From: Anseongella ginsenosidimutans | GTDB taxonomy: Bacteria > Bacteroidota > Bacteroidia > Sphingobacteriales > Sphingobacteriaceae | Length of the DNA stretch: 64,000 nucleotides | Direction: 5' to 3' | Assembly (NCBI RefSeq): GCF_008033235.1 | Contig: NZ_CP042432.1 | Location: 1,736,001-1,800,000 of the forward strand | Shown here: in pieces, positions 13,263-30,273 of the stretch | Layout: each line of letters begins with the position of its first letter | Numbering within the stretch: position 1 is the first letter of the stretch | Made by a program: the position numbers and the translations under genes | The notes under the pieces: generated by a model | Told to the model about the DNA's origin: nothing | What the model saw: only the letters and a program-made list of their open reading frames with translations | Databases searched by the model: none

Positions 13263-14198
13263 ATGAAACGCCTTCTTATTGTTGATAACCTGCATCCAGT
13301 TTTTATGGAACTCGTGGGAGCAGCAGGATACCGGTGCGATTACCGGCCGGAAATCACTTATAACGAATGTCTGCACGTAATCGGGGACTATGAAGGGCTC
13401 CTGGTGCGCAGTAAGTTTTATGCAGGCCGCGAATTGCTGGACGCCGCCGGCAAGCTAGAGTTTATAGGGCGTGCAGGAGCCGGGATGGACGGAATTGACG
13501 TTGCCCTGGCCGGCGAAAGAAATATTGCCCTGCTAAATGCACCTGAAGGAAACCGCGATGCGGTAGGAGAGCATGCGCTGGGGATGCTTCTTAGCCTGCT
13601 GAATAACCTTTGCACCGGCAACGCCGGAATCCGCGGCGGAACCTGGGACCGGGAAGGGAACAGAGGCATCGAACTCAACGGAAAAACCGTAGGTATTGTC
13701 GGCTACGGCTATATGGGGCAATGTTTCGCGAAAAAGCTTTCCGGACTGGACGTGCGCGTCATTGCCTATGATAAATATAAAAGCGGGTTTTCTGATCCCT
13801 TCGCAGAAGAAGTTTCCATGGAACGCTTATTTGCCGAGACAGACATTTTAAGCCTCCACATTCCTCTTACATCCGAAACCCGTCAAATGGTGAACCGCGA
13901 TTATTGGAATTCCTTTGCAAAAAGTATCTTCTTTATCAATACCGCACGCGGTGAGGTAGTGGATACCGCGGCCTTGCTGGAAGCCATCGCGTCCGGAAAG
14001 GTACGCGGCGCCGGGCTGGATGTCCTGGAAGCGGAAAGATTTCCAGCCCTGCAGGAACAACCCTGGTTTAAAGACCTCGTAAATTGCGGTAAGATACTAC
14101 TTAGCCCGCATGTAGCCGGCTGGAGCCATGAATCCTTCCGCCGTATTTCCGAGGTGCTTGCTGCCAAAGTGCTGGCCCTTTCAGCGCCTCGTCCTTAA
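13263..14198 (+). CDS. D-isomer-specific 2-hydroxyacid dehydrogenase
   Basis: NAD-dependent oxidoreductase, 311 residues, of the phosphoglycerate dehydrogenase-like group. The Rossmann motif is TVGIVGYGYMGQ. The catalytic set is present: Arg in FINTARGEVVD, Glu in DVLEAERF and His in LSPHVAGWS. There is no ACT domain, so it is the short form. Phosphoglycerate dehydrogenase (SerA-like) is possible because AGAGMDGID and the N-terminal layout fit, but other 2-hydroxyacids cannot be excluded. The ATG at 13263 follows the divergent promoter region. Open sequence continues upstream in frame but overlaps rsmA and lacks similarity. Confidence 0.9.
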   Translation: MKRLLIVDNLHPVFMELVGAAGYRCDYRPEITYNECLHVIGDYEGLLVRSKFYAGRELLDAAGKLEFIGRAGAGMDGIDVALAGERNIALLNAPEGNRDAVGEHALGMLLSLLNNLCTGNAGIRGGTWDREGNRGIELNGKTVGIVGYGYMGQCFAKKLSGLDVRVIAYDKYKSGFSDPFAEEVSMERLFAETDILSLHIPLTSETRQMVNRDYWNSFAKSIFFINTARGEVVDTAALLEAIASGKVRGAGLDVLEAERFPALQEQPWFKDLVNCGKILLSPHVAGWSHESFRRISEVLAAKVLALSAPRP

Positions 14199-14301: not shown

Positions 14302-14379
14302 GGGTTCGTTGAAAGAGTTTGTAAAAAGCAGCCCGCCCTACCGCTCCGCCCGAACCCTTCTTACAAAACTCTCTTCAAC
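14302..14379. repeat. Imperfect inverted repeat at the 3' end of the Rpn remnant
   Basis: The arm around 14308-14324 (GTTGAAAGAGTTTGTAA) is nearly complementary to 14361-14379 (TTACAAAACTCTCTTCAAC), with two one-base offsets. The right arm is the end of the Rpn-like coding region. It could act as a bidirectional terminator between two convergent genes, or be an inverted partial duplication of the gene end. Confidence 0.4.
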
Positions 14380-14901
14380 TCCCTCGATGGAAGCAATCTT
14401 TTGATCATTCAAGTCCGTTTGTTTGATCAGGGCCAGGACAGATGAATGTTTCTGCTGTTGAATACCTTCTCGCAGGCCTTCCTGCCGGCCTTCCCGTTTC
14501 GAGGCGCTTGCAATACTTCTAAGGTCGCGATCATAGTCAATTGTCATTTTTTGGTCCTCCTTTAGCTTATTGTAATCGGTTAATTGAAATAGTTTTTCAA
14601 ATAAGGGCCCCTGAAAGGACGAAGGTTGCTCCTGCAGATGAGGCAAGGCCTTCATGAGGTACAGCCATTTATCAAGATTGGTTTGCAGTTCGGCGATCGT
14701 CTTGGTGAACCTGGGAAGCTCCACCAGTATCAGTTCAAATGAAGCAGGGTAGGAATGATCCTTTCCGGAATTCGAATACTCCGATGAACGATAGCGCTTC
14801 TTTACCCGCAGTTCCCACGAGCTTTCCCGGCGATACTGCCAACCGGAATTGCTCCGGGGTGGCAAATTCCCGCATTCTCCTTTGGTTTTCAACTGGTACA
14901 T
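14338..14901 (-). pseudogene. Rpn-family (PD-(D/E)XK) nuclease/transposase-like remnant
   Basis: The C-terminal two thirds resemble the Rpn/PDDEXK_2 family: FELILVELPRFTKTIAELQTNLDKWLYLMKALPHL, then LFQLTDYNKLKEDQKMTIDYDRDLRS and a charged tail with REGRQEGLREGIQQQK. Family members are about 280-300 residues with the nuclease domain at the N terminus; here that domain is missing. Between about 14740 and 14800 the expected family sequence is in another frame (EALSFIGVFEFRK), reachable by one missing A and one extra G that compensate. The piece overlaps the end of the Uma2 gene by 13 bases. I read it as a decayed, N-terminally deleted copy. Confidence 0.65.
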
Positions 14902-15464
14902 GTATGTGGGGGTTTATTTTTGAATTCAAATTTTGCGCCTAATAAAACAGAACTCAATGCACCTTTGGCGGGCGGCAGGGCTTGAAAAGCTTTTTTTACG
15001 AGCTTATAGCCCTGCACCATGCAGCTGCCGGGGTTAACCAGCCAGTACTCCTTTACGGCGTTCCGTTCATACATGCGTTTTTTATCATGCCAGTCAAATT
15101 GCGAGGTGGCAGGGGAAATGATTTCCACGATCAGGTCCGGCGCGCCGTAAATTCCGTTCTTTTTAATAATAGACAGGCGTTCCCTGCTTATGTAAAGAAT
15201 GTCCGGCTGGAAAGCATTTTCGTCATCCAGGTAAACATTTATGGGCGCGTATAATAACTTCCCTAAACCCCGCTGTTTAACAAAATTATAGATAGCTACC
15301 GCTAGCTGGGCCGAGATATCCTGGTGAAGGAAGGCGGGAGCCGGTTCCATGACAATCATGTTTTCGATTAGCTGAGCCCTGGTTCCCTCCGGCAGGCCTT
15401 CAAAAATATCTTTGGCCGTTTGCGGAGCAGGGGGGTACGGATAAGCAGGAGTGTTCATTTTCAT
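14889..15464 (-). CDS. Uma2-family (DUF820) putative endonuclease
   Basis: 191-residue protein of the Uma2/DUF820 family, which has a restriction-endonuclease-like fold and unknown biological role. The catalytic-type residues are in FQPDILYISRERL and APDLIVEIISPATSQFDWHDKKRMYERNAVKEYWLVNPG, which is the family core. The tail (AKFEFKNKPPHTCTS) overlaps the Rpn remnant and differs from usual Uma2 ends, so the C terminus may have been altered by the rearrangement that damaged its neighbour. Uma2 genes are often strain-variable. Confidence 0.85.
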   Translation of the reverse strand: MKMNTPAYPYPPAPQTAKDIFEGLPEGTRAQLIENMIVMEPAPAFLHQDISAQLAVAIYNFVKQRGLGKLLYAPINVYLDDENAFQPDILYISRERLSIIKKNGIYGAPDLIVEIISPATSQFDWHDKKRMYERNAVKEYWLVNPGSCMVQGYKLVKKAFQALPPAKGALSSVLLGAKFEFKNKPPHTCTS

Positions 15465-15552: not shown

Positions 15553-15585
15553 TTTGCTTTTTAAGAAAATTATGTTTTAACTTTG
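15553..15585 (+). promoter_or_regulatory. Bacteroidota promoter upstream of the greA leader
   Basis: TTTG at 15553-15556 and TAACTTTG at 15578-15585 are separated by 21 bases, matching the -33/-7 arrangement of Bacteroidota housekeeping promoters. Transcription should begin near 15590, leaving a leader of about 185 bases before greA that folds into two hairpins. Confidence 0.6.
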
Positions 15586-15601
15586 TAATGAGTTATAAGA
15601 G

Positions 15602-15640
15602 CAAGACCTCGTCGTTTGCGCGGGGTCTTGTTTATTTATT
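15602..15640 (+). terminator. Terminator-like hairpin in the greA leader
   Basis: CAAGACCTCG (15602-15611) pairs with CGGGGTCTTG (15621-15630) over ten pairs with one G-T wobble and a nine-base loop. It is followed by the T-rich TTTATTTATT. It sits about 12 bases after the predicted transcription start, so it could end a short RNA or act as an attenuator for greA. Confidence 0.5.
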
Positions 15641-15647
15641 ACAAATT

Positions 15648-15759
15648 GGTGCTGTGTTAAGCGTGAACTTGCGGCGCCAAGCCTGGTATTTTGTCCCTGG
15701 CAGCTTGCAGGCACAAAAATACCGGCGAATATGCTATAGTTCACGCTTAATACGGCACT
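15648..15759 (+). ncRNA. Rod-shaped RNA in the greA leader, 6S-like shape
   Basis: A closing helix pairs 15649-15669 with 15738-15758 (21 pairs, two wobbles; core AAGCGTGAACT with AGTTCACGCTT). Next comes a large symmetric bubble of 13 and 12 bases (15670-15682 and 15726-15737). A second helix pairs 15683-15694 with 15713-15725, with one bulged A. The apex is a four-pair stem, 15696-15699 with 15708-15711. A long rod with a central bubble is the architecture of 6S RNA, and about 110 bases fits the short Bacteroidota type (6S-Flavo). Strand and identity are inferred from shape only. It could instead be a cis-acting greA leader structure. No T-run follows it. Confidence 0.45.
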
Positions 15760-15775
15760 TGCAAAAAGATTGGAA

Positions 15776-16249
15776 ATGGCTGAGATTACCTATTTTACAG
15801 AAGAAGGAATGAAAAAGCTCAGGGATGAGCTTGCACAGTTGAAAGGGGAAGGACGCACTGCAATTGCCAGGCAAATCGCGGAAGCGCGCGACAAGGGAGA
15901 TCTTTCCGAAAATGCAGAATATGATGCGGCCAAAGATGCCCAGGGTTTACACGAGCTCCGTATTGCAAAACTGGAGGAAACCCTTGCAAATGCCCGTATA
16001 GTTGACGAGTCCAAAATGGATGCATCAAAGGTGCTGGTGCTGTCTAATGTGAAGATCAAGAATATCCAGAACGGGAAGGTAATGTCCTACCAGCTGGTCT
16101 CAGAGAACGAAGCGGACCTGAAAGCAGGGAAAATTTCGGTGAAATCACCTATCGGGCAGGGACTCCTGGGTAAGACCGTGGGAGATGTGGCTGAAATTGA
16201 GGTGCCCACCGGCTTAATGAAATTTGAAGTACTGGGTATCAGCAGGTAA
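15776..16249 (+). CDS. greA: Transcription elongation factor GreA
   Basis: Rescues backtracked RNA polymerase by stimulating transcript cleavage through the secondary channel. 157 residues: an N-terminal antiparallel coiled coil with the acidic tip (GDLSENAEYDAAKDAQ, around residues 38-55), then the C-terminal FKBP-like domain ending IGQGLLGKTVGDVAEIEVP. The ATG at 15776 (MAEITYFTEEGMKKL) is the family start; the TTG two codons upstream is not needed. The HIT gene begins ten bases after its stop. Confidence 0.96.
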   Translation: MAEITYFTEEGMKKLRDELAQLKGEGRTAIARQIAEARDKGDLSENAEYDAAKDAQGLHELRIAKLEETLANARIVDESKMDASKVLVLSNVKIKNIQNGKVMSYQLVSENEADLKAGKISVKSPIGQGLLGKTVGDVAEIEVPTGLMKFEVLGISR

Positions 16250-30196: not shown

Positions 30197-30273
30197 CTTA
30201 TATTGGTGCTGCAAGTTCAGGCTTAACAGAACACTAATATTCCTGACAAAAGAAAATTTAAATCATTGAATAA

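Follow-up and report, generated by a model that had tools for sequence, protein, structure and literature searches.

The window, by which we mean the entire 64,000-nucleotide stretch of the Anseongella ginsenosidimutans genome analysed here, carries a gene for the transcription elongation factor GreA, whose leader contains a predicted promoter, a terminator-like hairpin directly behind it and, farther downstream, a long rod-shaped fold (Table 1). The two promoter motifs are separated by 21 nucleotides, and we take them to be -33- and -7-type elements in line with the Bacteroidota promoter consensus. The hairpin begins 14 nucleotides after the TAACTTTG box, i.e., at about +10 if transcription is assumed to start 5 nucleotides past the box. 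Its tail has 8 Ts in 10 nucleotides, as do the tails of 46 of 111 leaders from the family of the window; the longest run of Ts in it is 3, and the family consensus reads TTTnTTTTTT. The region from 15590 to 15776 folds with -83.1 kcal/mol (z-score -7.95), a value that was matched by 0 of 200 shuffles.

Table 1. Features of the greA locus, with positions counted from the first nucleotide of the window
Feature	Position	Strand	Basis or remark
TTTG, -33-type promoter element (predicted)	15553-15556	+	read from sequence
TAACTTTG, -7-type promoter element (predicted)	15578-15585	+	read from sequence
Stretch matched by covariance model R1, 44 bits	15578-15644	+	window leader is one of the 51 training rows
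Promoter-proximal intrinsic terminator hairpin (predicted greA leader attenuator)	15600-15632	+	fold, conservation, covariation, model R1
U-rich tail of the predicted terminator, TATTTATTAC	15633-15642	+	read directly 3' of the hairpin
Inserted MITE-like dispersed palindromic repeat copy, 110 bp (the rod)	15649-15758		TTG on both sides (15646-15648, 15759-15761)
greA, transcription elongation factor GreA	15776-16249	+	ORF; homologue in E. coli annotated greA; Bacteroidota relatives

The nearest sizeable ORF upstream of greA (14889-15464) runs in the opposite direction; since this ORF is divergent and the U-run of the hairpin lies on the plus strand, the hairpin is not its terminator. Two minus-strand ORFs in 14338-15464, one of which we presume to be of the Uma2 type, separate greA from a dehydrogenase-like ORF ending at 14198, and in the same-genus genome G001 greA is immediately preceded by what looks, by eye, like the end of a similar ORF.

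A sequence-only reading of this DNA had recognised both the promoter, which is read at 15553-15585 with its box conserved in the family, and a terminator-like hairpin within 15 bases of the predicted start. The comparisons below confirm these predicted elements of the greA leader as real and conserved. The promoter with its hairpin on the one hand and the rod on the other are two unrelated things.

Early terminator hairpins in Bacteroidota greA leaders

We compared greA leaders from the family of the window, from named Bacteroidota loci and from a wider sample of the phylum. The family set comprises 116 leaders from 118 genomes with a greA match (G082, where the contig ends, and G092 were left out), the family being taken, by inference, as Sphingobacteriaceae because some of its contigs are the same as contigs of named Pedobacter and Mucilaginibacter (L184 is L004, and L230 is L010). 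The named set of 80 loci thus overlaps with it. For the wider sample 99 genomes were searched, 9 weak matches were left out, and 90 leaders including that of the own genome were read and 89 counted; 15 of these 89 are cut at the start of the match with no ATG near, and G013 and G016 are also in the family set. As a strict rule, we asked for a box of the form TA-NN-TT-[TCA]-G and, at most 30 nucleotides on, a hairpin that is followed by a T-run and has a folding energy of -8 kcal/mol or lower.

Under this rule box and hairpin occur together in 115 of the 116 family leaders, that of the window included (one of the 115, L254, passes by way of a box that looks mis-assigned by eye), and in 65 of the 80 named loci; the corresponding figures are 4 of 277 for other genes at these 80 loci and 1 of 240 for shuffled named leaders. 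With the box ignored and the limit of -8 kcal/mol kept, a terminator hairpin is found in 116/116 family and 76/80 named leaders, compared with 47/277 other genes (7/123 where the neighbour is divergent) and 30/240 shuffles. The other-gene and neighbour controls, for which genes were taken from a crude ORF caller (ATG, at least 110 codons, a gap of at least 80 nucleotides), cover the 80 named loci rather than the wider sample. In the wider sample the terminator hairpin is present in 87 of 89 greA leaders, and the strict box rule, which is modelled on the kind of promoter that the window has, picks out 39 of 89. Among the named loci missed by the strict rule, L005, L007, L014, L015, L017, L027, L031, L040 (far upstream), L054, L058 and L066 hold, within 260 nucleotides, a terminator hairpin that satisfies the -8 kcal/mol limit, L046 and L051 have one of -7.4 kcal/mol, and for L035 and L048 the hairpin finder gave none in the leader. 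An upstream neighbour of greA is visible in 77 named loci and runs divergently in 56 of them, 43 of which have box and hairpin by the strict rule; hence, the greA hairpin is not in general a terminator of the neighbouring gene.

The stems themselves differ among lineages: GCAAGACTATG is typical of the family of the window and AATCCCGTC of Flavobacterium greA leaders, AACGGTTTC is found in Aquiflexum, Cognataquiflexum and Mongoliibacter, and GTAAAGTCAGC in the group f35. Within the genus, G001 keeps promoter and hairpin with 93% identity over 81 nucleotides. Together, nearly all Bacteroidota greA leaders examined have a predicted terminator hairpin followed by a T-run, and in Bacteroidia-type genomes it stands directly behind the predicted promoter.

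As a separate observation, 38 of the 116 family leaders hold at least two separate terminators within 260 nucleotides, some of them possibly the own terminators of upstream genes; in L010, L011, L016, L208 and L240, among others, the first hairpin is succeeded by another one that also has a T-run.

We then aligned 51 of the 115 passing family leaders (52 non-redundant ones minus L254) and built from this alignment (A1) the covariance model R1; the window is one of the training rows, the same-genus leader L147 was dropped as redundant, and G001 was not in training. The box letters T1, A2, T5, T6 and G8 are invariant in all 51, such a box having already been required by the selection rule. Pairing in the stem amounts to 93.7% of cells (86.8% in shuffled alignments), two-sided changes to 60 cells (20.8 ± 5.8 shuffled), and the covariation score to 0.382 (0.241 shuffled), with 0 of 500 shuffles reaching the observed value in each case; stems slid along the alignment as controls are 36-52% paired. 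Two-sided changes are seen at 9 of the 15 pairs, and many of the paired changes pass through G-U. The lower stem, CAAGAC/GTCTTG, is near-invariant in the family (A27-U67 and G28-C66 are kept in 51/51), and the 5' end and the loop are the least conserved columns. RNAalifold independently recovers the same stem, and nothing besides this terminator stem, in the aligned region from box to tail. Thus, by these comparative measures, the predicted stem is kept by covariation in the family of the window, its lower half almost letter for letter.

Of 61 family genomes, model R1 matches 56, and by position, compared by eye, the match is always at greA. Among the five genomes that it misses, G009 and G071 had given no greA and G082 has a truncated one; the leaders of G010 and G032 (L254 and L255) carry a different terminator hairpin. 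Two extra matches lie on the other strand of the same site (G019) and behind the stop of a 275-aa ORF (G003). When run on 31 of the named loci, it gave 10 plus-strand matches at E 6e-7 or better, all of them in Sphingobacterium, Pedobacter and Mucilaginibacter, and nothing better than E 0.89 in the remainder. As the reach of R1 is limited to the family, it lends no support to a common descent of the hairpins between families.

Possible roles of the early hairpin

According to passages of a study of the E. coli greA leader (PMC6829880), about one third of the transcripts pass the terminator known as GraL, and GreA lowers its own expression via the leader, for which both catalytically active GreA and the leader sequence are needed; the authors take Nus factors and Hfq as excluded from this feedback, did not reproduce it in vitro, and leave unresolved how GreA feeds back via GraL. 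By analogy, the explanation that we consider probable for this leader as a whole is a GreA-responsive early terminator in the greA leader, together with a rod that was separately inserted as a repeat. Many greA transcripts would end at the hairpin as short RNAs of about 45-60 nucleotides, and greA mRNA would arise from read-through only; as in E. coli, read-through would drop as active GreA rises, and the level of GreA would be held constant. Such a terminator would account for the apparent oddity of a good-looking greA promoter that is followed at once by a stop signal. The second proposal of the sequence-only reading, a GraL-like cis-regulator of greA, is in this way borne out for promoter and hairpin by their conservation, covariation and specificity to greA.

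With transcription assumed to start 5 nucleotides after the box, the hairpins mostly begin between 0 and +7 (that of the window at +10) and end at a median of +27 (65 named leaders) or +44 (115 family leaders); from there to the ATG the median distance is 34 (named) or 37 (family) nucleotides. Since only about 0-10 nucleotides of RNA lie upstream of the hairpin, given that assumed start, the leader element would act on RNA polymerase itself rather than via an RNA switch.

The hairpin could also be an early terminator without regulation, doing no more than keeping greA output low, or the source of a trans-acting small RNA. Any terminator lowers output, and E. coli GraL is reported, in passages of PMC6829880, to act in trans too; however, the poor conservation of the unpaired parts of the family hairpin speaks against a conserved target seed, and a lower stem conserved nearly to the letter probably exceeds what a plain terminator needs. 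We therefore regard this account as rather unlikely. Lower still in probability is a classical riboswitch or attenuator with a competing antiterminator, of the kind that Naville and Gautheret (2010) describe, in parts of PMC2965389, for each greA/rnk leader cluster that they modelled. The position of the hairpins, so near to both the assumed start and the ATG, leaves little RNA for a competitor, and RNAalifold yields the terminator stem alone. A fold test for antiterminators gave a smallest penalty of 7.9 kcal/mol over 180 leaders; since it gave 20.6 kcal/mol for E. coli despite the antiterminator reported there, the test is non-discriminating, and a kinetically controlled switch is compatible with it. 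That a repressor binds the inverted repeat as its DNA operator, as the near-invariant CAAGAC...GTCTTG just past the family promoter might suggest, is highly improbable, given that the spacing of the half-sites ranges from 13 to 29 nucleotides over the 110 of 116 leaders with the motif (21-23 in 75 of the 110), that stems vary between families while the T-run is constant, and that so many paired changes go via G-U.

Returning to the GreA-responsive terminator, one may tentatively go further and envisage GreA homeostasis by a terminator immediately at the 5' end of the greA transcript as a near-universal circuit of Bacteroidota, independent of the enterobacterial one or far diverged from it. Its near-invariant lower stem would be read by RNA polymerase together with GreA, making it an unusually small autoregulatory element without an RNA switch; we see this as possible, though somewhat doubtful. 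As almost every leader examined in the phylum keeps a compact version, and a deep alignment is at hand, the question of GreA feedback becomes testable by comparison and with short reporter constructs.

The rod as a copy of a dispersed repeat

The rod folds as a single structure (15648-15759; on its own z-score -7.00, 0 of 200 shuffles as good). The sequence-only reading had its overall shape right, a single rod with an apical hairpin; the outer helix has 22 rather than 21 pairs, and in place of the supposed 13/12-base central bubble the minimum-energy fold shows an interrupted middle with some pairing.

A search of the own genome with the leader gave five further matches at four places, all within the rod. 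L089, a copy in better condition, was then used as the query and brought up one more full copy (L090, 90% identity) besides a number of half copies and fragments. A pattern for the end motif of the repeat (up to 3 mismatches) has 15 forward and 13 reverse matches, as against 2 and 1 for the same pattern written backwards; no two ends among these 28 matches in the own genome lie 0.5-5 kb apart. The two full copies have nested inverted modules in common and read TA-GTG...CAC-TA at their ends, and their outer arms change in step with each other. The copy in the window, flanked by TTG on both sides, lacks the innermost module. We thus have in this genome several related copies with shared inverted ends, and the rod is, as judged from these matches, one stray member of the dispersed palindromic repeat family found here.

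Outside this genome the rod is absent from the greA leader of G001, where 39 nucleotides separate hairpin and ATG, and was matched in 0 of 59 other genomes (at most 13 preliminary candidates per genome were scored). The rod arm (up to 2 mismatches) is found in 2 of 196 leaders, namely that of the window (0 mismatches) and L227 (2 mismatches, judged to be chance), and in 0 of the 89 leaders of the wider sample. Because greA leaders are without the rod, the in-step arm changes belong to the repeat family and not to them; the compensatory changes in related greA leaders whose absence the sequence-only reading had named as refuting are clearly present in the early terminator. In a separate event, a repeat copy would have landed between terminator and start codon, thereby lengthening the greA leader.

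Several further traces of the repeat were noted. L092, L096, L097 and L103 share the inner module and have other outer inverted ends, as if modules had been swapped; in L083 (1560-1680) a truncated copy precedes a further imperfect inverted repeat, TTAGCGTAGTGGGGGC ... GCCCCCATTACGCCAAA; and a single repeat end lies at 30203-30238 of the window, just behind a strong terminator-like hairpin.

In being short and non-coding, with inverted ends, several partial copies and TA at the ends of L089 and L090, the repeat resembles MITE-like and other palindromic repeats. It differs from REP elements in that no gene for their transposase, Y1_Tnp, was found in the genome, and a REP/RAYT origin was rejected on this ground, the control search having been positive in 5 of 14 genomes.

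The sequence-only reading had likened the rod to 6S RNA. No Rfam family, 6S included, matches the window at threshold, and 6S-Flavo (RF01685) has no match in the own genome; in the three Flavobacterium genomes that served as a positive control, searched in the same manner, this model stays slightly short of its cut-off of 85 bits, with scores of 78-81, and it has no match in one Mucilaginibacter genome. Near-matches to BSnc120 and rnk_pseudo in the window are far below their gathering scores. A 6S-like RNA that mimics an open promoter and binds RNA polymerase can practically be dismissed, for the likeness to 6S-Flavo extends to the rod-like fold only (a long rod with an interrupted middle and an apical hairpin), while the suggested covariance search gave no model hit and the rod belongs to a repeat family and is missing from the same-genus leader.

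Comparison with GraL and other known greA leaders

An early terminator of greA is known from E. coli; as far as our limited literature searches show, its Bacteroidota version is new, no report of such a leader in Bacteroidota having been found in the open-access literature, with subscription papers outside the scope of the search. In the part of PMC2965389 covered, its main text, the words 'Bacteroid', 'Porphyromonas' and 'Cytophaga' are absent, and Chlorobia are among its genomes, mentioned for another gene. The whole word greA is absent from a paper on P. gingivalis PG_RS02100 (PMC6231650), and passages of a B. thetaiotaomicron atlas (PMC10994844) hold no statement on the greA leader.

The Rfam model of GraL (RF01769) scores 127.5 bits on the E. 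coli leader and has no match up to E 1 in 8 Bacteroidota loci, that of the window included. The hairpin finder used here marks the GraL hairpin in E. coli, which does not pass the Bacteroidota box rule. In both systems a terminator hairpin with a T-run lies near the promoter in the 5' leader and is followed by greA, an intrinsic terminator thus being predicted in Bacteroidota between the predicted greA promoter and the gene. The Bacteroidota hairpin differs in being nearer to the assumed start (mostly 0 to +7, as against +19 to +48 for the GraL hairpin in the relevant passages of PMC6829880) and in having a predicted -7-type promoter. Without detectable sequence kinship to it, the predicted architecture of the Bacteroidota greA leader is that of E. 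coli GraL.
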